From Lachnospiraceae bacterium (GTDB lineage: Bacteria; Bacillota; Clostridia; Lachnospirales; Lachnospiraceae), in NCBI GenBank assembly GCA_017634975.1, contig JAGBMJ010000143.1, forward strand, positions 1 through 33,069: a stretch of 33,069 nt of DNA, in the 5' to 3' direction. The position numbers and the translations under genes were made by a program. Position 1 is the stretch's first letter. Each line of letters begins with the position of its first letter. The notes under the pieces were generated by a model. That model was not told the origin of the DNA. It saw nothing but the letters and a program-made list of their open reading frames with translations, and searched no databases. Shown piece after piece: positions 14,326-29,402 of this stretch.

Positions 14326-17300
14326 GTGGAAGAGAATAAGAAGATTTATCATGTGGGATTGGATATCGGTTCAACAACCGTAAAAGTAGTGGCTATTGAT
14401 CCGGAAGGAAAAGTGGTCTATTCGGAGTACCGCAGACATCATGCTGAGGTACGTCAGGTATTGGAACAATTACTGGGAGAATTGATGGATACCATCGGAA
14501 ATGCCCAGTGTACCATAGAGATTACCGGAAGCGGCGGCCTGCAGCTGGCAGAGCGTCTGCAGATCCCGTTTGTGCAGGAGGTCGTAGCGGTCGTAGGTGC
14601 GGTACGACAGCTGTACCCGCAGACGGATGTGATCATTGAGCTGGGCGGAGAAGATGCAAAGCTGGTGTATCTGACCGGCGGTGTGGAACAGCGTATGAAC
14701 GGCATCTGCGCCGGCGGTACCGGTGCGTTTATCGATCAGATGGCATCCCTGATCCAGACGGATGCAGCCGGACTGGATCTGCTGGCAAAGGATGCACATG
14801 CAAAGTATCCGATCGCGGCTCGCTGCGGCGTGTTTGCAAAGACGGATATCCAGCCGCTCATTAACGATGGTGTAGCAAGAGAGGATCTGGCGATCAGTAT
14901 CTTTCAGGCGGTGGTGGATCAGACCATTTCCGGTCTGGCATGCGGCCGTCGTATCAAGGGAAAAGTGGCATTTCTGGGCGGACCTCTGCATTTCCTGCCG
15001 AGACTCCGTGAACGTTTTGCGGATACCCTGCATCTGGGACCGGATGAGCAGATCGTGCCGGAGAACGGACATCTGTTTGCAGCACATGGTGCGGCGATCC
15101 ACGGCCAGCGCGGAGGTGCGGTATCGCTCGGAGAGATCAGGGAAAACCTGGCACATGTCGGTACCGGCATGGAACTGGAGCATCTGCAGTGTCTGTTTGA
15201 AACGGAAGCGGATCTGGAAGCATTCCGTGAGAGACAGCGGAGCAATAAGGCACCGGCCGGAGATATCAAAGAGTATCATGGCAACTGTTTTCTGGGCATA
15301 GACGGCGGTTCTACAACAACCAAGATGGCACTGCTGTCCGAGGACGGAAAGCTTCTGTATTCCTATTACGGAAATAACAAAGGTGACCCGGTCGGCTGCG
15401 TGAAAGAAGCGATCCGCGGCCTGGCGGAGGTGATGCCGAAAGACGCAAAGATCGCACATGCATGCTCTACCGGATACGGTGAAAAACTGTTAAAAGAAGC
15501 ATTCGGCCTGGATGAGGGCGAGGTGGAGACCATTGCGCACTACTATGCAGCGCGCTTTGTGGATCCGGAAGCCGATTGTATCATCGATATCGGCGGACAG
15601 GATATGAAGTGCATCCGTATCAAGAACGGCAGTGTGGATTCCATTCTGCTGAACGAAGCGTGTTCTTCGGGATGCGGCTCTTTTATAGAAAACTTTGCGG
15701 ATTCCATGGGATACACGGCGAAGAGCTTCTCGGAACTGGCGCTGAAGTCCAAGATGCCGCTGGATCTGGGAACCCGTTGTACCATTTTTATGAACTCCAA
15801 CGTAAAGCAGGCACAGAAGGAAGGTGCGGCAGTTGAGGATATTGCAGCCGGACTGGCATATTCGGTTGTAAAAAATGCGTTGTTTAAGGTGATCCGTATG
15901 ACGGATCCGGCGCAGCTGGGCGAGCATATCATCGCACAGGGCGGTACGTTCTTAAGCGATGCGATATTGCGATGCTTTGAACTGGTATCCGGGCGCGAAG
16001 TGATCCGGCCGGCAGAAGCAGGTCTGATGGGGGCCATGGGTGCGGCGCTGATCGCAAAAGAACGCTGGACCGGTGGCGTATCTTCCATGCTCTCCTTTGA
16101 AGAGATCGCGGATCTGACCTTTACCACATCGCAGTCCAGATGCAAGGGCTGCCAGAACCGTTGCCGCCTGACGATCGGCCAGTTCTCCAACGGTCACAGA
16201 TATATTACCGGTAACCGCTGTGAACGTGTTGTGGGTGGCGGCGGAAAGAAGAACGATGCGCCGAACCTGTTCGAATTCAAACGTAAGAGGATGTTTGACT
16301 ATGAGCCTTTGGAGGCAACCCAGGCACCCAGAGGCGTGATCGGTATTCCGCGCGTTCTGAATATGTATGAGAATTATCCGTTCTGGGCGGAGTTCTTCAA
16401 ACATCTTGGATTCCGTGTGGTGATCTCGCCGTTCTCGGATCAGAATCTGTATCGTCTGGGTATGGATTCGATCCCGAGTGAATCCGAGTGCTATCCGGCA
16501 AAGATGGTACACGGTCATATCACCTGGCTTGTGGAGCAGGGCGTGGACCGGATCTTCTATCCGTGCGTTTATTATGAGCGAAAAGAAAATGCGAATGCGC
16601 AGAACCATTATAACTGTCCGATGGTCATTTCCTATCCGGAAAACGTCCGCAACAATATGCAGATCATTTCGGAGAAGAACATCAATCTGATCTCGCCATT
16701 CATTGCATTTACCGATGAGCAGGTGCTGACGAAGTGCCTGGAAAGCGTAATGCATGAAAACTTTGAGATCAGTAAAAAAGAGGTTCGGGAAGCGGTGCAT
16801 ATCGGCTGGGAAGCTCTACTTAAGTGCAAGGCCGATATCACGGAGGAAGGCCGCAAGACGGTTGCCTGGCTGAAAGAACACAAAGCACATGGTATCGTAC
16901 TGGCCGGACGTCCGTATCATCTGGATCCGGAGATCAACCATGGTATTCCCGAGATGATCCAGAGTCTCGGCTTTGCGGTATTGACGGAAGACAGCGTAGC
17001 TGCACTTGCAGAGGTAGAGAGCGGTCTGCGTGTGACGAATCAGTGGACCTACCATGCAAGACTGTATGCCGCAGCGGAATATGTGGCGACACAGGATGTG
17101 CTGGATCTGATCCAGCTCAACTCCTTCGGCTGTGGTCTGGATGCCGTAACGGCAGATCAGGTACGTGAACTGCTGGAAAAGAGAAACCGTCTGTATGCAT
17201 TACTGAAGATCGATGAGATCAGCAACCTGGGTGCGGCACGTATCCGTGTGCGTTCCCTGGCAGCAGCGATCCGTTCCAGAGACAGCGGTCCGCAGAAAAA

Positions 17301-18570
17301 AGTGACTCCGGTGGAATATCCGAGAGTGGAATATACGAAAGAGATGAACGACGCGGGATATACGATCCTGTGTCCGGAAATGTCCCCGCACCATTTCGAA
17401 CTGGCCAAGGCGGCATTTGAAACCTGCGGTTATCGTCTGGCATTGATGAAGAATGAAAACCACAATGTCATCGATATGGGACAGCGCTATGTCAATCATG
17501 ATGCATGTTATCCGGCGATGATCGTGACCGGTCAGATCATGGATGCGGTATCTTCGGGGGATTATGATACGAAGCGCCTGGCCGTGATGATGGTACAGAC
17601 CGGCGGCGGCTGTCGTGCATCCAATTATGTGGGCTTTATCCGCAAGGCGCTGAAGGAAGGCGGCTACGGACATATCCCCGTGATCTCACTGAATGTAAAC
17701 GGTATGGAGACCAACTCCGGTTTCACGCCGTCCGTGACCCTGCTGTATAAGGTGATGCAGGCCGCTATGTACGGTGACCTGATGGCAAATATGCGCTATC
17801 ATGCCAAGGCGTATGAAGTGGAAGAGGGTGCTACGGAAGCCATGTACGATAAATGGCAGAAGAAGTGCATTGAGTCGATCCGGCAACACAGCAGCATGCA
17901 TACTTTCTATAAACTCTGCCGTCAGATGGTCAATGATTTTGACTCGATCGAACTGCGCACGGATATCGTGAAGCCGAAGGTCGGTATCGTAGGCGAAGTA
18001 CTTGTAAAATACATGCCGCTTGCAAACGAGCATCTGGCGGATCAGCTGGAGAAAGAAGGCGCGGAAGTGGTAATGACCGAAATGGTTACCTTCCTGGAAT
18101 ACTGCTTCTCCGGTGCGATCTACCGAGGAAAGAAGCTGGGCAAGAGCAAGAAGGCGGCTATGGCGGCACGTTTTGGTCTGGGACTGGTCGACAGCATCAA
18201 GAAGAAGACCGATAAGATGCTGGAGGAAAGCAAACACTTTACCCCGGCGGGACGGCTAAGTCAGATCAAGAGTTTTGCGATGGAGATCCTGCAGCAGGGT
18301 AACCAGACCGGAGAAGGCTGGTATCTGCCGGGCGAGATGATCGAGCTGATCCATCAGGGCGTGAACAATATCGTCTGTGTGCAGCCGTTCGGATGTCTGC
18401 CGAACCACATCGTGGGTAAGGGCGTTACCAAAAAGGTCAAGGAGAAATATCCTGAGGCCAATATCGTAGCGATCGATTACGACCCTTCCGCAAGTAAGGT
18501 GAACCAGCTGAACCGTCTGCGCCTGATGCTGGAAGTGGCGCAGGAAATGCTGCGAAACGAAGGAAAGTAA
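14326..18570 (+). CDS. Giant 2-hydroxyacyl-CoA dehydratase activase-related protein
   Basis: A 1414-residue protein fusing parts otherwise found as activator and dehydratase subunits. Two ASKHA ATPase domains of the BcrAD/BadFG family come first: GLDIGSTTVK and GICAGGTGAF (C128) at about 8-255, then FLGIDGGSTTTK and EACSSGCGSF (C446, C450) at about 322-575. A cysteine cluster follows (C606, C609, C613), then a DUF2229 domain with SESECYPAK (C722), and an HgdB-like C-terminal half with GGGCRASNYVGF. The archetype HgdC uses ATP to inject one electron from a 4Fe-4S cluster into the dehydratase. The large fused form is widespread in Clostridia but its substrate is unsettled. It starts at GTG 14326 with only a weak GAGAG upstream. 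The ATP synthase operon begins 30 nt downstream. Confidence 0.9.
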   Translation: MEENKKIYHVGLDIGSTTVKVVAIDPEGKVVYSEYRRHHAEVRQVLEQLLGELMDTIGNAQCTIEITGSGGLQLAERLQIPFVQEVVAVVGAVRQLYPQTDVIIELGGEDAKLVYLTGGVEQRMNGICAGGTGAFIDQMASLIQTDAAGLDLLAKDAHAKYPIAARCGVFAKTDIQPLINDGVAREDLAISIFQAVVDQTISGLACGRRIKGKVAFLGGPLHFLPRLRERFADTLHLGPDEQIVPENGHLFAAHGAAIHGQRGGAVSLGEIRENLAHVGTGMELEHLQCLFETEADLEAFRERQRSNKAPAGDIKEYHGNCFLGIDGGSTTTKMALLSEDGKLLYSYYGNNKGDPVGCVKEAIRGLAEVMPKDAKIAHACSTGYGEKLLKEAFGLDEGEVETIAHYYAARFVDPEADCIIDIGGQDMKCIRIKNGSVDSILLNEACSSGCGSFIENFADSMGYTAKSFSELALKSKMPLDLGTRCTIFMNSNVKQAQKEGAAVEDIAAGLAYSVVKNALFKVIRMTDPAQLGEHIIAQGGTFLSDAILRCFELVSGREVIRPAEAGLMGAMGAALIAKERWTGGVSSMLSFEEIADLTFTTSQSRCKGCQNRCRLTIGQFSNGHRYITGNRCERVVGGGGKKNDAPNLFEFKRKRMFDYEPLEATQAPRGVIGIPRVLNMYENYPFWAEFFKHLGFRVVISPFSDQNLYRLGMDSIPSESECYPAKMVHGHITWLVEQGVDRIFYPCVYYERKENANAQNHYNCPMVISYPENVRNNMQIISEKNINLISPFIAFTDEQVLTKCLESVMHENFEISKKEVREAVHIGWEALLKCKADITEEGRKTVAWLKEHKAHGIVLAGRPYHLDPEINHGIPEMIQSLGFAVLTEDSVAALAEVESGLRVTNQWTYHARLYAAAEYVATQDVLDLIQLNSFGCGLDAVTADQVRELLEKRNRLYALLKIDEISNLGAARIRVRSLAAAIRSRDSGPQKKVTPVEYPRVEYTKEMNDAGYTILCPEMSPHHFELAKAAFETCGYRLALMKNENHNVIDMGQRYVNHDACYPAMIVTGQIMDAVSSGDYDTKRLAVMMVQTGGGCRASNYVGFIRKALKEGGYGHIPVISLNVNGMETNSGFTPSVTLLYKVMQAAMYGDLMANMRYHAKAYEVEEGATEAMYDKWQKKCIESIRQHSSMHTFYKLCRQMVNDFDSIELRTDIVKPKVGIVGEVLVKYMPLANEHLADQLEKEGAEVVMTEMVTFLEYCFSGAIYRGKKLGKSKKAAMAARFGLGLVDSIKKKTDKMLEESKHFTPAGRLSQIKSFAMEILQQGNQTGEGWYLPGEMIELIHQGVNNIVCVQPFGCLPNHIVGKGVTKKVKEKYPEANIVAIDYDPSASKVNQLNRLRLMLEVAQEMLRNEGK

Positions 18571-18600: not shown

Positions 18601-19467
18601 ATGAGCAAACAGCAGAGAAGAAATATCATCATCGTATCGATTCTGTTTCTGGCGGCGATCATTGCAGGGATTGTAATGATGCCGCAGCCGGAAAAGCATG
18701 AGACGATCAAGGCTGCCATGCGTGACGCTGTTCTGCACGACGAGAATAAGATCGCTTTCTTTGGTTTTGCCGTGGATCCGTCCCTGGTATCCGGCTACAT
18801 TGTTACGGCGGTGCTTTTGTTCATCGCACTGCTGATCCGGATTTTTGCCATCCCGAAGTTTCAGATGGTGCCGGGCAGATTCCAGTTTCTGATCGAGCAG
18901 TGGGTAGGTATCTTTGACGGCCTGGCAAAGACAAACTCCCCGCATAAAAACGGCGCGCTGGGCGCCTATATCTTCGGTGCCGGTACCTATATCTTTGCCG
19001 GTACCATGTTTGAACTCTTCGGTATTCAGGGTATCACCACCGAAGGGCACAGTATTTCTCTGCCGGCACCGCTGGCAAATATCAACGGTGCGATCTGTAT
19101 GGGCTTTCTGTCCTATCTGTTTATTTTATCCGGCGGTATTTTGGTGAATAAGGTAAAGGGCGTGGGGAAGACACTGAAAGAGTTTTCCCTTCCGGTTTCC
19201 ATGACCTTCCGATTGTTCGGAGCCCTGCTTTCCGGTATGCTGACGACGGAACTCGTGTATTATTACATCAATCTGAGTTTTGTCCTGCCGGTGATCGTAG
19301 GACTTTTGTTCACGGTGCTGCATGCATTGATCCAGGCCTATGTCCTGACAATGCTGACCAGTGTATATTACGGTGAAGTGACAGAGGTCAGTGAACAGAA
19401 ACCGAAAAAGAAGAAAAAGAACAAACCGAACAAACTGAACAATGATGCGGAAATCGCAGAAGCATAA
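18601..19467 (+). CDS. atpB: ATP synthase F0 subunit a
   Basis: A 288-residue membrane subunit forming the two ion half-channels beside the c-ring. The essential arginine is R204 in SMTFRLFGALLSGM, where most homologues read RLFGN, so the usual asparagine is replaced by alanine. HALIQAYVLTMLTSVY matches the last conserved helix. The N-terminus has one membrane helix (about 9-27), then a loop with the conserved short helix region. The C-terminus carries a lysine-rich tail (KPKKKKKNKPNK, about 267-278) beyond the family's usual end. No atpI precedes it. It is the first gene of the operon; the ribosome site is weak (AGAAGGG right at the ATG). Confidence 0.95.
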   Translation: MSKQQRRNIIIVSILFLAAIIAGIVMMPQPEKHETIKAAMRDAVLHDENKIAFFGFAVDPSLVSGYIVTAVLLFIALLIRIFAIPKFQMVPGRFQFLIEQWVGIFDGLAKTNSPHKNGALGAYIFGAGTYIFAGTMFELFGIQGITTEGHSISLPAPLANINGAICMGFLSYLFILSGGILVNKVKGVGKTLKEFSLPVSMTFRLFGALLSGMLTTELVYYYINLSFVLPVIVGLLFTVLHALIQAYVLTMLTSVYYGEVTEVSEQKPKKKKKNKPNKLNNDAEIAEA

Positions 19468-19493
19468 AAGAACAGATAACGGAGGATAAAAAA

Positions 19494-19865
19494 ATGAAAC
19501 AGTTAAAGAAGATGGCAGTAATGTTGGCAGCAGTGATCCTGCTCATCGGTGCGGTGGCATCGGTAAGCGCTTTGCAGGCGAATGCAGCGGACAGTGCAGA
19601 GACAGCTGTGGCAGCAGAGGCACAGGCAGGCGCGGACAGCAGCACGGGCATGAAAGCACTGGCAGCTTCCATCGCCATCGGTCTGGCAGGTATCGGCGGT
19701 ACCATTGCCATGGGTATGGCGATCGCAAAGTCCAACGAAGGTGTAGCAAGACAGCCGGAAGCAGCCGGCAAGATCCAGACGCAGCTGATGCTCGGCCTGG
19801 TATTTATCGAGACCGTTGTTATTTATGCATTGATCGTAGCGATCCTGATCGTCTTCGTATTATAA
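19494..19865 (+). CDS. atpE: ATP synthase F0 subunit c with N-terminal signal-like extension
   Basis: A 123-residue proteolipid, about 45 residues longer than usual. The c hairpin occupies about 53-123: first helix with GLAGIGGTIAMGM, loop R86-Q87-P88, and second helix with the ion carboxylate E106 in FIETVVIYAL. Ahead of it residues 1-31 look like a Sec signal peptide: positive MKQLKK, a hydrophobic core and ANA before A32, then an alanine-rich acidic linker. GGAGG precedes the first ATG, so the extension is translated. The position equal to the sodium-binding glutamine (Q32 in Ilyobacter) is M73, which argues for proton coupling. An internal Met53 has no ribosome site. Confidence 0.95.
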   Translation: MKQLKKMAVMLAAVILLIGAVASVSALQANAADSAETAVAAEAQAGADSSTGMKALAASIAIGLAGIGGTIAMGMAIAKSNEGVARQPEAAGKIQTQLMLGLVFIETVVIYALIVAILIVFVL

Positions 19866-19904
19866 AAAAAGGTCTATTATTGAACGATTCGGAGGTTTTG
19901 TGTT

Positions 19905-20399
19905 ATGCCGTTGGGAATTGACTTTACACAGATATTGCTGCATTTATTCAATGTGATCATACTGTTTGTAGGTCTCTACATCCTGCTGTATGCGCCGGTG
20001 AAGGCGTTTATGCAGAAGCGCAGCGACTACTATGCGGATCTGGAGAAGGATACCAAAGCCGCATTGGAAGAAGCAAATGCAAAAAAAGCAGAGTATGAGG
20101 AAAAGCTGGCAGCCGTGGAACAGGAGATCGAGGAGCAGCGCAAGGCTGCCAACAGTGAGATCGCGGCCATGAAGCGGGAGCAGAGCGAGGCGGCCAAAGA
20201 GGAAGCCAGAAAGATCCTTGAGAGTGCGAGAGAAAACGGTGAGAAGCAGAAGCTGATGATCATCAGCGGTGCCCGTGAGGATATCACGCATATGATCGAA
20301 GAGGCAACCCGCAAGGTTATGGCGGGAGAAGCGTCTGCAGATCCTTACGAGGATTTTATCCGGAATGCGGAAAGGAGCCGTGCAAATGGCCACAAGTAA
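19905..20399 (+). CDS. atpF: ATP synthase F0 subunit b
   Basis: A 164-residue peripheral stalk subunit of normal length. One membrane helix (about 10-30, ILLHLFNVIILFVGLYILL) leads into a long charged coiled coil (about 35-145) with the usual alanine- and glutamate-rich heptads. The C-terminus, which normally grips delta, ends in YEDFIRNAERSRANGHK and carries no fused delta domain. GGAGG lies 9 nt before the ATG. The last 14 nt overlap the alpha gene, leaving no room for a separate atpH between them. Confidence 0.95.
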   Translation: MPLGIDFTQILLHLFNVIILFVGLYILLYAPVKAFMQKRSDYYADLEKDTKAALEEANAKKAEYEEKLAAVEQEIEEQRKAANSEIAAMKREQSEAAKEEARKILESARENGEKQKLMIISGAREDITHMIEEATRKVMAGEASADPYEDFIRNAERSRANGHK

Positions 20400-22140
20400 G
20401 ATACAGAAAGCCGTTCTCTATGCTGCGAAGGAGCCGACTGCGCAGCAGCAGGAAAGGCTTTTGCATTTTTTGGAAGAAAAATACGGCAGGGCTTATGAAC
20501 TGGACTGGCATGAGGATGTGAGTACCGGCAATGGCTTTCGACTGGTGGTGGGCGACGAAGTGTACGACAACACCAAGGAAGGCCGCTTTTTGCAGTTGAA
20601 AGAACTGCTGGGCGAGCTGGCGCTCCGGGAGGATGCGGAAGATGTGATCTCACTGTACCGTTCCTCCATCGACAGCTGGGATGCCGAGACAGTGGCGGAA
20701 GAAGAAGGTACGGTGCTTTCGGTCGGCGACGGTATCGTATTTATTGACGGACTGGGCGGCGCGGAATATGGCGAGATCGTGGTATTTGAGTCCGGCGTGA
20801 AGGGAATGTTCCAGGATATCCGTCAGGATACCATGGGCGTGATCCTGTTTGGTGACGACAGTGAAGTGCGTGTGGGCAGCCGTGTGCGCCGCACAAAAAA
20901 GACGGCAGGTATCCCGGTAGGGGATGCGTTCCTGGGACGTGTGGTCAATGCACTGGGTGAGCCGATCGATGGGATGGGGCCGATCGCGGCCTCGGATTAC
21001 CGTATCGTGGAAGCACCGGCGGCAAGCATCATTGACCGTCAGTCGGTAGACACGCCGATGTACACGGGACTGCTTACGATCGACTCGATGTTCCCGATCG
21101 GACGCGGACAGAGAGAGCTGATCATCGGCGACCGGCAGACCGGCAAGACAACGATCGCACTGGATACGATCCTGAACCAGAAGGGGAAGGACGTGATCTG
21201 CATCTATGTGGCGATCGGACAGAAAGCCGGCAGCATCGCGCAGCTGGTCGGAAATCTGAAGAAAAAGGGCGCTATGGATTATACGGTCGTTGTCAGTGCA
21301 ACGGCCAGTGAACCGGCACCCATTCAGTATATCGCGCCTTATGCGGGAACTTCGCTGGGTGAGTATTTTATGTATCAGGGCAAGGATGTGCTGATCGTTT
21401 ACGATGATCTCTCAAAGCACGCGATCGCTTACCGCGCCTTATCCCTGCTGCTGGATCGTTCCCCGGGACGTGAGGCGTATCCGGGCGATGTCTTTTATCT
21501 GCATTCCAGACTGCTGGAACGCTCCGCGCATTTATCGGATGCGCTGGGCGGCGGCAGTATGACGGCACTGCCGATCGTAGAGACCCAGGGAGGCGATGTA
21601 TCGGCGTATATTCCGACGAACATCATCTCCATCACGGATGGCCAGATCTTTCTGGAGAGCGACCTGTTCTTTTCCGGACAGCGGCCTGCCGTAAATGTCG
21701 GACTTTCCGTATCCCGTGTGGGTGGCGCGGCACAGACTAAGGCAATGAAAAAGGCGGCCGGCTCGATCCGTCTGGATCTGGCACAGTATCGCGAGATGGA
21801 GATCTTTACCCAGTTTTCCAGTGATCTGGATGAAGCCACCCGAAAACAGCTGGTCTACGGACAGGGGCTGATGCAGCTGCTGCGGCAGCCGCAGGGCAGC
21901 CCGTTTTCCCTGCATGAGCAGGTAGTGATCCTGGTGGCTGCGACTGCGCATGTAATGCAGGATGTGGATCCGCTCAGGATCACGGAATTCAGGAAAGCGC
22001 TGCTGGCGTATTTTGAACAGAAGAAACGGACCTTGATGCAGAAGATCGATACCGAAGGCACGATGTCGGACGAACAGAAGGCAGAGATCATAGAGACGGC
22101 AAAGGAGTATCTTGAGCTGTGGCAAACGGCAGAGAAATAA
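20386..22140 (+). CDS. atpA: ATP synthase F1 subunit alpha fused to a delta (OSCP) C-terminal domain
   Basis: A 584-residue protein, about 80 longer than a normal alpha. Residues 82-584 are a standard alpha: VLSVGDGI (101-107), Walker A GDRQTGKT (248-255), VYDDLSKHA and the arginine finger R444 in SVSRVGG. Residues 6-76 are not alpha-like. They follow the C-terminal domain of delta: 'VLYAAKEPTAQQQERLLHFL' corresponds to the 'V-x-x-A-x-x-L-s-x-x-Q' opening, and GDEVYD with EGR (56-67) to the E. coli GDMVIDGSVRGR. Delta's N-terminal helical domain is missing and no atpH lies in the operon. ATG 20386 is chosen over the in-frame 20365 because AAAGGAG lies 8 nt before it. It overlaps atpF by 14 nt and atpG by 22 nt. 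Confidence 0.95.
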   Translation: MATSKIQKAVLYAAKEPTAQQQERLLHFLEEKYGRAYELDWHEDVSTGNGFRLVVGDEVYDNTKEGRFLQLKELLGELALREDAEDVISLYRSSIDSWDAETVAEEEGTVLSVGDGIVFIDGLGGAEYGEIVVFESGVKGMFQDIRQDTMGVILFGDDSEVRVGSRVRRTKKTAGIPVGDAFLGRVVNALGEPIDGMGPIAASDYRIVEAPAASIIDRQSVDTPMYTGLLTIDSMFPIGRGQRELIIGDRQTGKTTIALDTILNQKGKDVICIYVAIGQKAGSIAQLVGNLKKKGAMDYTVVVSATASEPAPIQYIAPYAGTSLGEYFMYQGKDVLIVYDDLSKHAIAYRALSLLLDRSPGREAYPGDVFYLHSRLLERSAHLSDALGGGSMTALPIVETQGGDVSAYIPTNIISITDGQIFLESDLFFSGQRPAVNVGLSVSRVGGAAQTKAMKKAAGSIRLDLAQYREMEIFTQFSSDLDEATRKQLVYGQGLMQLLRQPQGSPFSLHEQVVILVAATAHVMQDVDPLRITEFRKALLAYFEQKKRTLMQKIDTEGTMSDEQKAEIIETAKEYLELWQTAEK

Positions 22141-23015
22141 AAAACCGTATCGGCAGTGTACGAAATACCAGAAAGATCACGAATGCGATGTATCTGATCT
22201 CTTCTTCCAAGCTGCGTAAAGCCAGGGCAGAACTAGCCAAAACAAGACCGTTCTTCCGGGCAACGGAGCATGAGATCAAGCGGATTTTCCAAAGTACTTC
22301 GGAAGTGGAGTCGCAGTATTTCTACCCGTCCTCCGGACCGACCAAAGCAGAGACCGTAGCGTTTCTGGTGATCACTTCAGACCGCGGGCTGGCAGGTGCA
22401 TACAACTATAATGTGATCCGGCGCGCAGAGGCGGAGATCCGCAAACGGGAAAAGGTGCGGCTCTTTGTGATCGGTGATTACGGCCGCCGGTATTTTAAGC
22501 ATCATAACGGACCGGTGGAGGAAACCTTTTTTTATACGGCACAGGATCCCACGTTCCGCAGGGCCAGAGAGATCAGTTACACATTGCTGACGGAGTATAC
22601 CGAGGGGCGTGCGGACGAGATCCGTATCATCTACAGTGATATGGAAAATGATATGGTCAGTACCGTCAAGTGCGTGCGTGTACTGCCCTTTGAACGTAAG
22701 ATGTTTCTTTCGGAGGAAGAGGCGGAGAACAGTTCCGACCAGATGTATAAGTTTGAGCCGTCTGCCTCCAAAGTGCTGGATCAGATGATCCCGTCTTATA
22801 TGGCTGGTTTCATCTACGGCGCGATGGTCGACAGTTTTTCGGCGGAACAGAATGCAAGAATGAATGCGATGCATACCGCTACCGAGAACGCGGACGAGCT
22901 GATGGGAGATCTGCAGATCGAATACAACCGCGTGCGGCAGTCCGCCGTCACACAGGAGATTACCGAGGTAGCTTCGGGAGCCCGGGCACAAAAGAAAAAG
23001 AAGAAAAAATTTTAG
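22119..23015 (+). CDS. atpG: ATP synthase F1 subunit gamma with oligolysine C-terminus
   Basis: A 298-residue central shaft subunit. The N-terminal helix reads EIKNRIGSVRNTRKITNAM, the middle has the conserved ITSDRGLAGAYN, and the C-terminal helix RMNAMHTATENADELMGDLQ to QEITEVASGA matches the family. It then runs past the usual end with ARAQ, six lysines and phenylalanine. In known structures the gamma C-terminus lies inside the upper part of the alpha3-beta3 ring, so this tail would point toward the delta position. It starts at GTG 22119 within the end of atpA (22-nt overlap), with AAAGGAG about 11 nt upstream. Confidence 0.95.
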   Translation: MANGREIKNRIGSVRNTRKITNAMYLISSSKLRKARAELAKTRPFFRATEHEIKRIFQSTSEVESQYFYPSSGPTKAETVAFLVITSDRGLAGAYNYNVIRRAEAEIRKREKVRLFVIGDYGRRYFKHHNGPVEETFFYTAQDPTFRRAREISYTLLTEYTEGRADEIRIIYSDMENDMVSTVKCVRVLPFERKMFLSEEEAENSSDQMYKFEPSASKVLDQMIPSYMAGFIYGAMVDSFSAEQNARMNAMHTATENADELMGDLQIEYNRVRQSAVTQEITEVASGARAQKKKKKKF

Positions 23016-24458
<1,443 letters not shown>

Positions 24459-24478
24459 AGACGGAGAAATAAAACGGA

Positions 24479-24898
24479 TTGAATACGTTTCATCTGAAAA
24501 TCTATGAGTCAGACAGCGCCTTTTTTGAAGGCGAAGCGGAGATCGCGGTGATCCCCGTGGAGGACGGGGAATACGGTGTGATGGCAGGGCATGAGAATGC
24601 CGTGGTAGCCGTGATGCCGGGGATCATGCATTATCGTCCCGTGGGTGGGGAGATGCAGTATGCATCGGTCGGTAACGGCATGCTCCGTGTGGAAAAGAAC
24701 GATGTGCTGGTGCTGGTGGAAACTGCGGAGCGTCCCGAGGAGATCAATGAGGCACGTGCACGGGCGGCGGAGGAAGAGGCCCGGGAAGCCATGCTGCAGA
24801 AGAAGAGCTATCAGGAATACCGGCTTGCGGAGATCCAGCTGGAGCGGGAACTGGCCAGACTGAAGCTGATGGACTACCGGGATGGACCGGGAAACTAG
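24479..24898 (+). CDS. atpC: ATP synthase F1 subunit epsilon
   Basis: A 139-residue subunit that couples the gamma shaft to the c-ring and can inhibit ATP hydrolysis. The N-terminal beta sandwich shows 'FHLKIYESDSAFFEGEAEIA' and GEYGVMAGHENAVVAVMPG, and the C-terminal helices start at about 85 (AERPEEINEARARAAEEEA). Length and layout are normal. It starts at TTG 24479; GGAG lies 12 nt upstream, rather far, so translation may depend on coupling with atpD, which ends 20 nt before. It is the last gene of the operon; no terminator is seen directly after it, and a new promoter overlaps its end. Confidence 0.94.
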   Translation: MNTFHLKIYESDSAFFEGEAEIAVIPVEDGEYGVMAGHENAVVAVMPGIMHYRPVGGEMQYASVGNGMLRVEKNDVLVLVETAERPEEINEARARAAEEEAREAMLQKKSYQEYRLAEIQLERELARLKLMDYRDGPGN

Positions 24899-24924: not shown

Positions 24925-24977
24925 TCGCCTATATGTACGGAATTTAAGGAAAAATGGGTGAAGTCGGAGGAAGAATT

Positions 24978-25193
24978 ATGGCAGAACTGGACAGACAGGC
25001 AACGGAACTGGAAACCCTGATGCATTCGTTATCCTTTGCGGATGAAGGCGCCGGCGTGGTACAGACAGCAAATACAACCATGCGGCAGAAGGATATTGAT
25101 TTTCTGGTAGCGATCCTGCAGGAATTACAGGAATATCGTGAGATCGGAACGGCAGAGGAATGTCGTGCATACAAAGCAAAGGCGCTTGGCTGA
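24978..25193 (+). CDS. Small helical protein of unknown function (71 aa)
   Basis: A 71-residue soluble protein beginning MAELDRQATELETLMHSL and ending in EECRAYKAKALG, with predicted helices at both ends and no membrane segment or cysteine motif. GGAGG lies 7 nt before ATG 24978; an upstream in-frame ATG at 24954 would put this ribosome site inside the gene, so the shorter form is preferred. A promoter overlapping the atpC stop and a terminator-like hairpin after the gene make it a self-contained unit. I do not recognise the family, and its place after the ATP synthase operon need not mean a link in function. Confidence 0.7.
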   Translation: MAELDRQATELETLMHSLSFADEGAGVVQTANTTMRQKDIDFLVAILQELQEYREIGTAEECRAYKAKALG

Positions 25194-26959: not shown

Positions 26960-27017
26960 ATAAGCCTTCCCGCTTTGGGAAAGATGCCCGAGGGGCGGAT
27001 GAGGAGTTTTGAACAGT

Positions 27018-29402
27018 ATGAAATTAAGCGACTTAAAACAGGGCGAAAAAGCAAGGATCACAGATGTTGGCGGAGAGGGAGCTCTCAGGCAGCACTTTTT
27101 GGATATGGGACTGATCCCGGGAGCGGATGTGGAACTGGTGAAGTTTGCCCCCATGGGTGATCCGGTGGAGTATCGTGTATACGGCTATGAACTGACCCTG
27201 CGTCTGGCAGATGCAGAGCAGATCACCGTGGAAGAACTTCCCCATAAAAAAGAAACATCTCCTGACGGAGAAACTCTGAAGCCGCGCAAAGACGCGTCGG
27301 GTTCCCGTGATCACAGATCACGATCAGAAGCAGAGCATCCGGGTCTGGGGGAAGAAGGACGCTATCATGAAAAAGAAACGGAGAATCCCCTGCCGGAGGG
27401 AACGCCGCTGACCTTTGCACTGGTCGGCAACCAGAACAGCGGAAAGACCACGCTGTTTAACCAGCTGACCGGATCGAACCAGCATGTCGGAAACTTTCCG
27501 GGGGTTACGGTCGATCGCAAGGATGGAGAGATCCGCGGACAGAAGGGGACGCTGATCACGGACCTGCCGGGCATCTATTCCATGTCGCCGTATACCAGTG
27601 AAGAGATCGTTTCCAGGGATTTTGTCCTGAAGGAAAAGCCCAAGGCGATCATAAATATCGTGGATGTGACCAGTATCGGGCGGAATCTGTATTTGACGAT
27701 GCAGCTGCTCGAGATGGGACTGCCGATGGTGGTAGCACTCAATATGATGGATGAGATGATCGGCAACGGCGGCTATGTGGACATCAACGCGATGGAGGAG
27801 ATGCTGGGTGTGCCGGTTGTGCCGATCTCGGCAGCAAAGAATGAGGGTGTGGATGAACTGGTGCATCATGCGATCCATGTGGCGAAATATCAGGAAACAC
27901 CGACGGTGCAGGATTTTTGCGACAGTACGGATCATGGCGGTGCCGTACACCGCTGTATTCATGCAGTGATGCATCTGATTGAGGATCACGCGGTGAATGC
28001 GGGGATCCCCGTACGGTTTGCGGCAGCCAAGCTGATCGAAGGAGATCAGCTGCTTCTGGAACAGCTGGCGCTGGAGCAGAATGAAAAAGAGATGCTGGAG
28101 CATATCGTGCTGCAGATGGAAAAAGAGCGTGGTATGGATCACAGTGCGGCGATGGCGGAAATGCGCTACGCCTACATCAATAAGGTGTGCGACCGCTGTG
28201 TGGAAAAGCCGGCGGAGAGTAAGGAACATATCCGCAGCCGGCAGCTGGATCGTGTGCTGACCGGCAAATATACCGCGATCCCGGTGTTTGTACTGGTGAT
28301 GGCAGCCGTGTTCTTCCTGACCTTCGGTTTGATCGGGCCGTTTCTGCAGGACCTGCTGGCGGCAGGGATTGAAAAACTGGGAAGTGTTGTGGATGGCATG
28401 ATGGATGCAGGGCAGGTGAACTATGCCGTGCGCAGTCTGGTGATGGACGGGATCTTTGAAGGCGTGGGAAGCGTGGTCAGTTTCCTGCCGATCATCGTGA
28501 CCATGTTTTTCTTTCTCTCTCTTCTGGAGGACAGCGGGTATATCGCGCGTGTAGCGTTTGTGATGGACAAGCTGCTGCGAAAGATCGGCCTGTCCGGGCG
28601 CAGTATCGTGCCGATGCTGATCGGGTTTGGCTGTACGGTGCCGGCGGTCATGTCCACACGTACCCTGCCCTCGGCAAGGGACCGCAGGATGACGATACTG
28701 CTCACGCCGTTTATGTCCTGTACGGCCAAGCTGCCCATCTATGGTTTCTTTGTGAGTGCATTCTTTCCGGAGTACAGCTGGCAGATCATCACGGGACTGT
28801 ATCTGCTGGGGATCGTTACCGGGATCCTGGTATCCTTATTGTTTAAGAAGACACTGTTCAAAGGTGAGGCGGTACCGTTTGTGATGGAACTGCCCAATTA
28901 CCGTATGCCGGGGGCGAAGAATGTGCTGCAGCTTTTGTGGGAAAAAGCCAAGGACTTTCTGCAGAGAGCCTTTTCCGTGATCCTGATCGCGACGATCGTG
29001 GTATGGTTCTTAAAGAGCTTTGATCTGCGATTTGAACTGGTAGAGGATGCGCACAGCAGCATCCTGGCAATGATCGCCGGATGGTTCGTTCCTTTGATGC
29101 AGCCGGTCGGAATGGGAGACTGGCGTATCATCACGGCACTGGTGAGCGGGTTTATGGCGAAGGAAAGTATGGTCTCCACTATGGAAGTGCTCTTTGCACC
29201 GGAGGGGGTAGCAGGCGTGATCCCGACGGCGGCAGCGGCTGCAATGCTGGTCTTTTCGCTGCTCTATACTCCCTGTGTGGCTGCAGTGGCATCCATCCGC
29301 CGGGAACTGGGAAATAAGTGGGCGATGTGTGTGGTGCTGTGGCAGTGCGGGATCGCGTGGGTGGCGGCCCTGCTGGTAAATCTGCTCTGCTCCGGTCTGT
29401 AA
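27018..29402 (+). CDS. feoB: FeoA-FeoB fusion, ferrous iron transporter
   Basis: A 794-residue fusion of the two Feo proteins. Residues 1-75 are an FeoA SH3-like domain (MKLSDLKQGEKARITDVGG, FLDMGLIPGADVELV). A charged, probably disordered linker of about 50 residues follows. FeoB begins near 130 with its G-protein domain: G1 GNQNSGKT (137-144), G3 DLPG (182-185) and G4 NMMD (242-245). The membrane part contains the gate motifs GFGCTVPAVMSTRTLPSARD and FMSCTAKLPIYGFF, each with its conserved cysteine. It imports Fe(II), coupled to GTP hydrolysis. ATG 27018 has GAGGAG 11 nt upstream; TTG 27009 is only 2 nt from it. No FeoC gene follows and I see no recognisable Fur box; the flippase gene ends 58 nt upstream. 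Confidence 0.96.
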   Translation: MKLSDLKQGEKARITDVGGEGALRQHFLDMGLIPGADVELVKFAPMGDPVEYRVYGYELTLRLADAEQITVEELPHKKETSPDGETLKPRKDASGSRDHRSRSEAEHPGLGEEGRYHEKETENPLPEGTPLTFALVGNQNSGKTTLFNQLTGSNQHVGNFPGVTVDRKDGEIRGQKGTLITDLPGIYSMSPYTSEEIVSRDFVLKEKPKAIINIVDVTSIGRNLYLTMQLLEMGLPMVVALNMMDEMIGNGGYVDINAMEEMLGVPVVPISAAKNEGVDELVHHAIHVAKYQETPTVQDFCDSTDHGGAVHRCIHAVMHLIEDHAVNAGIPVRFAAAKLIEGDQLLLEQLALEQNEKEMLEHIVLQMEKERGMDHSAAMAEMRYAYINKVCDRCVEKPAESKEHIRSRQLDRVLTGKYTAIPVFVLVMAAVFFLTFGLIGPFLQDLLAAGIEKLGSVVDGMMDAGQVNYAVRSLVMDGIFEGVGSVVSFLPIIVTMFFFLSLLEDSGYIARVAFVMDKLLRKIGLSGRSIVPMLIGFGCTVPAVMSTRTLPSARDRRMTILLTPFMSCTAKLPIYGFFVSAFFPEYSWQIITGLYLLGIVTGILVSLLFKKTLFKGEAVPFVMELPNYRMPGAKNVLQLLWEKAKDFLQRAFSVILIATIVVWFLKSFDLRFELVEDAHSSILAMIAGWFVPLMQPVGMGDWRIITALVSGFMAKESMVSTMEVLFAPEGVAGVIPTAAAAAMLVFSLLYTPCVAAVASIRRELGNKWAMCVVLWQCGIAWVAALLVNLLCSGL

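Follow-up and report, generated by a model that had tools for sequence, protein, structure and literature searches.

The F-type operon of the window and its fused alpha gene

The window, a stretch of 33,069 nucleotides from a Lachnospiraceae bacterium, contains an F-type operon on the forward strand (18601-24898) with the gene order a-c-b-[deltaCTD-alpha]-gamma-beta-epsilon, and a Pfam domain was found in each product. The operon begins with atpB (subunit a, 288 aa, 18601..19467; PF00119, E = 3.5e-15), atpE (subunit c, 123 aa, 19494..19865; PF00137, E = 7.1e-16), whose product carries a signal-peptide-like N-terminal extension of about 45 residues (KQLKKMAVMLAAVILLIGAVASVSALQANAADS...), and atpF (subunit b, 164 aa, 19905..20399; PF00430, E = 1.1e-9). 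These are followed by the fusion gene (20386..22140, 584 aa), which shares 14 bases of overlap with atpF, and by atpG (gamma, 22119..23015; PF00231, E = 1.4e-89), atpD (beta, 23031..24458, start uncertain; TIGR01039, 793.6 bits) and atpC (epsilon, 24479..24898, TTG start), the last encoding both epsilon domains (PF02823 and PF00401). atpH is absent from the operon.

Immediately 5' of atpB is a gene for a 1414-aa CoA enzyme activase-type protein (BcrAD_BadFG and DUF2229; 14326-18570), and right 3' of the epsilon gene is a 79-aa frame without a significant Pfam match (24954-25193). A single 797-aa frame at 27009-29402 contains both FeoA and FeoB domains.

The initial annotation had read the fusion gene as a delta/OSCP C-terminal domain (CTD) joined to an otherwise normal alpha, in a continuous frame with its own ribosome site, and had predicted that residues 1-80 would match the C-terminal half of PF00213. 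That match was found: positions 99-171 of the 172-position profile align with residues 3-74 of the fusion, with 28.9 bits (E = 1.4e-6) for the whole protein and 32.2 bits (E = 1.4e-7) for residues 1-97, above the gathering cut-off of 22.3. The delta CTD thus occupies residues 1-74 (20386..20607). It is followed by a linker and the retained alpha N-terminal helix (DVISLYRSSIDSW), up to EGTVLSVGDGI (20608..20736), and by a complete alpha with the P-loop GDRQTGKT, for which TIGR00962 (atpA) matches residues 84-575 with 733 bits, above the equivalog cut-off of 484.45. Five NCBIfam delta models and one b/delta model match the same N-terminal stretch, but none reaches its full-length cut-off, the outcome expected of half a delta; the full delta model TIGR01145 scores 22.4 bits against a cut-off of 57.5. 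The start codon (ATG, 20386) is preceded by AAAGGAG, and the frame is unbroken to 22140. In the DNA, the PF00213 match starts at 20317, 5' of the ATG, and by position runs back into the b gene.

A profile built from 13 members of the genus was searched against the PDB. The top match, with E = 1.8e-12, was 9jc1_I, a chain whose name gives delta plus alpha; 113 of its residues aligned with 112 profile positions, across the delta domain and the linker and then into alpha, with one single-residue gap and a gap-free linker. Matches were also obtained to the Bacillus PS3 delta chain 6n2y_I (9.9e-4) and to 5t4o_L (1.1e-6), which we take to be E. coli delta. The GD.VYD and GR stretch of the profile aligned with GDMVID and RGR of 5t4o_L, which bears out the correspondence proposed earlier for GDEVYD and EGR in the window protein.

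The copies of the operon on contigs C120 and C104 of the window genome are 99.98% identical over 12,001 bases, and the C120 copy is probably a redundant contig of an assembly with 7.46% contamination. This contamination and the duplicated stretch are what could be said for reading the fused frame as an error of assembly, a frameshift or a sign of operon decay. The probability of such an origin is negligible, as every subunit of the window operon retains its domains and the join is free of stop codons in 24 of the 25 fusion-bearing genomes of the genus (it is interrupted by Ns in the 25th) and in at least 46 of the 80 loci listed from named genomes. These independent genomes refute the artefact reading, and the frame is therefore not a sequencing join. 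A split delta, with its N-terminal domain (NTD) as a separate small gene, was also considered, prompted by a PF00213 match spanning positions 14-172 with a stop inside it in another genome (G015). It was rejected, because the sequence ahead of the stop belongs to the C-terminus of b, lying in the frame of alpha and separated from it by a gap of a few bases. At the level of sequence, the window fusion is confirmed as a real, conserved delta CTD fused to a complete alpha.

Occurrence of the fusion and of a conventional operon in the same cells

Of 35 genomes in the window's genus, 25 carry the fusion, the window genome included, as do 53 of 294 genomes sampled from its order (stop-free frame, E up to 1e-9). 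A fusion frame was present in 7 of 398 genomes sampled from the phylum, four of which are shared with the order sample. A scan of named genomes returned 159 related loci, and among the 80 listed, at least 46 (L076-L121) are stop-free across the join, some of these frames ending early or at a contig end (e.g. L099, L101, L103). Their record titles name Lachnospiraceae, Oscillospiraceae, Ruminococcus, Faecalibacterium, Eubacterium, unplaced Clostridia and one Peptoniphilaceae bin. At least 34 of the same 80 (L122-L155) are ordinary delta and alpha neighbours separated by a stop.

In mycobacteria, delta is fused to b. As in the mycobacterial protein (7jg5_d is presumably among its solved chains), delta is joined in the window to another stator subunit, but the partner there is b and here is alpha; the b/delta model NF009961 gives 16.5 bits against 328 for residues 1-97, and b is encoded by a separate 164-aa gene. 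The alternate F1Fo enzyme known as N-ATPase is a second F-ATPase without a separate delta gene, a feature that the window enzyme shares; the fusion scores 606 against the 750.5 cut-off of the N-ATPase exception model TIGR03324. The delta-CTD/alpha fusion, which the initial annotation had not counted as an established type, was in fact engineered, and noted in Acidaminococcus, in 2025 (PMC12229609). The authors describe the same gene fusion without the NTD in Acidaminococcus fermentans, with UniProt G4Q3K6 and A0A1I2C5T3 as similar cases; going by the description in that paper, the domain order is that of the window protein. No further report of a natural delta-alpha fusion was found in a search of titles and abstract openings, which lay mostly outside subscription journals. 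The window fusion is thus a further member of a type already in print, and the trait is much more widespread than the three cases named in PMC12229609. What we add to the known type is its scale, a co-resident second enzyme, full-length forms and the repeated NTD-less state.

According to the initial annotation, a full-length atpH elsewhere in the genome that assembles with this enzyme would count against the fusion. A full-length atpH is indeed present in the window genome; it lies on contig C123 in a separate conventional operon, which encodes a full delta (162 bits) and its own alpha. Within the genus, a full delta was found in 32 of 35 genomes, and 22 contain both a full delta and the fusion. 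This raises the possibility of a hybrid, in which the full delta from the conventional operon is shared with the fusion enzyme and supplies the missing NTD. We consider it very unlikely, given the genomes in which the fusion stands alone. The selection comprised 62 genomes, one of them included for a near relative and the rest for a fusion. Two or more alphas (E up to 1e-120) occur in 40 of these, only a full-length fusion in three and only a separate pair in one. The remaining 18, drafts among them, yielded an NTD-less fusion as their sole alpha (E up to 1e-120), and the search for a full delta gave nothing in any of them. Eight of the 18 are at least 98% complete according to tables, with ratings reaching 100%; the 18 include Faecalibacterium sp. 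An121 (G727) and Candidatus Paralachnospira caecorum (G725). From these genomes, the natural enzyme probably does without the delta NTD, absence from draft genomes being no proof.

Evolution of the fusion and of the NTD-less state

In a tree of 123 alpha cores, the fusions and two separate delta/alpha loci (G322 and G324:C51) fall on one deep branch (78 rows, SH-aLRT 100), set apart from the alphas that the same genomes encode in conventional operons. By its place in this tree, the fusion is assigned to a deep second F-ATPase lineage, which often occurs beside a conventional operon with a full delta. The exceptions are two NTD-less fusions, L248 (G409) and L249 (G582), on another alpha branch; in G582 there is another alpha as well (L250), which has a separate delta of its own. 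Given these two fusions on another branch, the deltaCTD-alpha architecture probably arose at least twice. L248 was also considered as a full-length fusion, in view of its 659-aa stop-to-stop frame, and this was rejected, as the sequence reads NTD-less.

Some members of the second lineage retain a full but divergent delta before alpha, for example in L121 (676 aa) and in frames of 671-697 aa. The NTD-keeping fusions, of about 670-697 aa, are L121 (1645-3675), L165-L167, L169, L172-L177, L180-L184, L187 and L255. They place three delta NTDs on each F1, a form that goes unmentioned in the available text of PMC12229609. On contig G322:C23 (L168 and L258), a delta and alpha of the second-clade type are separated by a single TGA inside the matched stretch, likely the layout before fusion or after a re-split.

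NTD-less rows adjoin full-length ones in the tree at L171/L165 and L252/L184, each pair sharing one genus code, and at L251/L169. A more careful tree was built from 58 rows (38 NTD-less, 13 full fusions and 7 separate, 5 of these as outgroup), leaving out L248, L249 and 25 of the 63 second-clade NTD-less rows, all 25 from the 48-row NTD-less clade of the 123-core tree. On it, the NTD-less state requires six changes, four of them forced by the starred branches, and a history with one change was obtained in 0% of 200 bootstrap trees. Constraining the NTD-less rows together made the tree 108.7 log units worse (AU p = 1.97e-9), and a single origin of the NTD-less state was rejected for these 58 rows. 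Topology tests on the alpha sequences thus show that the NTD-less state has more than one origin. One clade of all second-lineage fusions was not rejected (AU p = 0.13).

No delta NTD was found in any frame of the window locus or of the other NTD-less loci (64 in total). A profile of the NTD, built from the 13 full-length fusions and run on six frames of these loci, gave a best E value of 1.4, on the opposite strand. The DNA preceding the fusion frame amounts to some 1.4 kb or more in 63 of them and to 178 bases in L019. The same profile was run on 13 control loci, three of them training rows. Eight others were matched with E < 0.04 (L168 and L258 being one gene), L250 was matched at 0.55 only, and L248, itself NTD-less, gave no match. 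In all 12 NTD-less loci examined for it, the upstream frame, b by sequence, either overlaps the fusion or stops fewer than 100 bases short of it. The repeated NTD-less state is what would be expected if the NTD were useless or obstructive once delta had been fused. Together with the full-length forms, it offers a natural experiment on the purpose of the delta NTD.

Probable ion coupling and proposed multi-stalk assembly of the fusion enzyme

A Na+-binding c-ring is recognized by Gln or Glu at position 32 and Glu-Ser/Thr-Thr at positions 65-67 (Ilyobacter numbering). We extracted c subunits from 141 of the 155 loci tried, some genomes being represented twice. The conventional operons beside second-clade enzymes have Gln (30) or Glu (10) together with ETT in 40 of 40 loci, which correspond to 36 distinct alpha cores. 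In the second clade, position 32 is Met or Ile in 96 of 96 loci and never Gln or Glu; the two fusions outside it have Asp. The window-type c, read from the identical c on contig C120, departs from the Na+ rule, with Met at the position of the Na+-ligand Gln and ETVVIY at the carboxylate. The main NTD-less clade has ETA, ETV or ETL and retains the hydroxyl at position 66. The c motifs suggest that the co-resident conventional enzyme is Na+-coupled, and the fusion enzyme is likely H+-coupled; this is not certain, because Thr is kept at position 66 despite Met and ETV. The N-terminal extension of the window c is also present in most c genes of the main NTD-less clade and is missing from the c of conventional operons and of full-length-fusion relatives (71-93 aa).

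Butyrivibrios carry genes for two ATP synthases, one for H+ and one for Na+, and membranes of Pseudobutyrivibrio ruminis showed both activities (PMC11026938, citing Schoelmerich et al. 2020). An H+/Na+ pair in one Lachnospiraceae cell is the pattern that the c motifs point to here. Unlike the present case, the butyrivibrio passage of PMC11026938 is silent on a delta-alpha fusion. In a study of 62 butyrivibrio genomes, all F0F1 subunits were counted as present in all, and fusions go unmentioned in the text available (PMC4478896).

Every ATP synthase known to date is stated to contain just one a subunit in each complex (PMC12229609). Ueno et al. (2025) engineered a deltaDN-alpha FoF1 of Bacillus PS3, with 9JC1 among the depositions, in which the delta NTD was removed by design because it sits on the three-fold axis and restricts the enzyme to one stalk (PMC12229609). 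The product carried as many as three stalks and three a subunits, with a mean of about two stalks by both gels and H+/ATP, an a-subunit ratio of 2.2 and an H+/ATP of 5.8 compared with 3.0; protons per turn are given as the number of c multiplied by the number of a (PMC12229609). The window fusion has the same layout, the delta CTD on the N-terminus of alpha, the NTD absent and the linker of near-equal length. As far as described, the PS3 enzyme differs from the window enzyme in being designed and in lacking the epsilon C-terminal domain, which the window epsilon keeps. Stalk number was measured for the PS3 enzyme, whereas the window enzyme is known here from its genes.

By analogy, we consider it fairly probable that the natural enzyme assembles with more than one peripheral stalk, and the authors of PMC12229609 call a multi-stalk enzyme in A. 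fermentans highly likely. In it, delta has been cut down to its b-binding CTD, now part of alpha. Since each F1 holds three alphas, each with a delta CTD, it would offer three b-binding sites, and the three-fold axis would be empty, with no delta NTD to break the symmetry and restrict the enzyme to one stalk. Up to three b2 dimers could dock, each with an a subunit, and the number of protons moved per turn would double or triple. In such a low gear, ATP could be made at low proton-motive force and, in reverse, more protons could be pumped per ATP against a weak gradient. We infer the assembly from the engineered homologue, and the physiological role likewise goes beyond the genes.

Three identical delta CTDs do not oblige three b2 dimers to bind. 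The fusion may only replace the delta anchor, with one b2 on one delta CTD, the other two empty and an ordinary H+/ATP. Triple-stalk particles were extremely few in cryo-EM of the engineered enzyme, although the authors blame the loss of stalks in sample preparation (PMC12229609). Full-length delta-alpha fusions, with three NTDs per F1, also persist in the same clade; three NTDs per F1 can therefore be tolerated, and fusion alone need not serve multi-stalk assembly. Such a single-stalk enzyme does not obviously explain the repeated NTD-less state, and it does not agree with the average of about two stalks indicated by gels and H+/ATP for the engineered enzyme (PMC12229609). We regard it as possible but rather unlikely, and rank multi-stalk assembly above it.

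Gene content gives no backing to a role of the multi-stalk enzyme at low proton-motive force in the window genome, where searches for RnfC (E up to 1e-30) and for a PF00346 large subunit (E up to 1e-10) both came back empty. There the enzyme may therefore run mainly as an ATP-driven low-gear pump. In the genus, where relatedness is uncontrolled and several genomes are incomplete, PF00346 (the Ech-type large subunit) was found in 6 of 35 genomes, all six fusion-bearing, and RnfC in 23 of 35, namely 14 of 25 with the fusion and 9 of 10 without.

Taken as a whole, the proposal is evenly balanced: a multi-stalk, multi-a F1Fo may have evolved naturally and several times, by delta-alpha fusion and then loss of the NTD four to six times in parallel within one anaerobic lineage, giving a low-gear H+ machine often found beside a conventional Na+ ATP synthase. 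The question of stalk number is directly testable in the native enzyme of Faecalibacterium sp. An121, in which no F-type alpha other than the fusion was found. If the proposal is true, nature has made the multi-stalk, multi-a enzyme that is otherwise known only by engineering.
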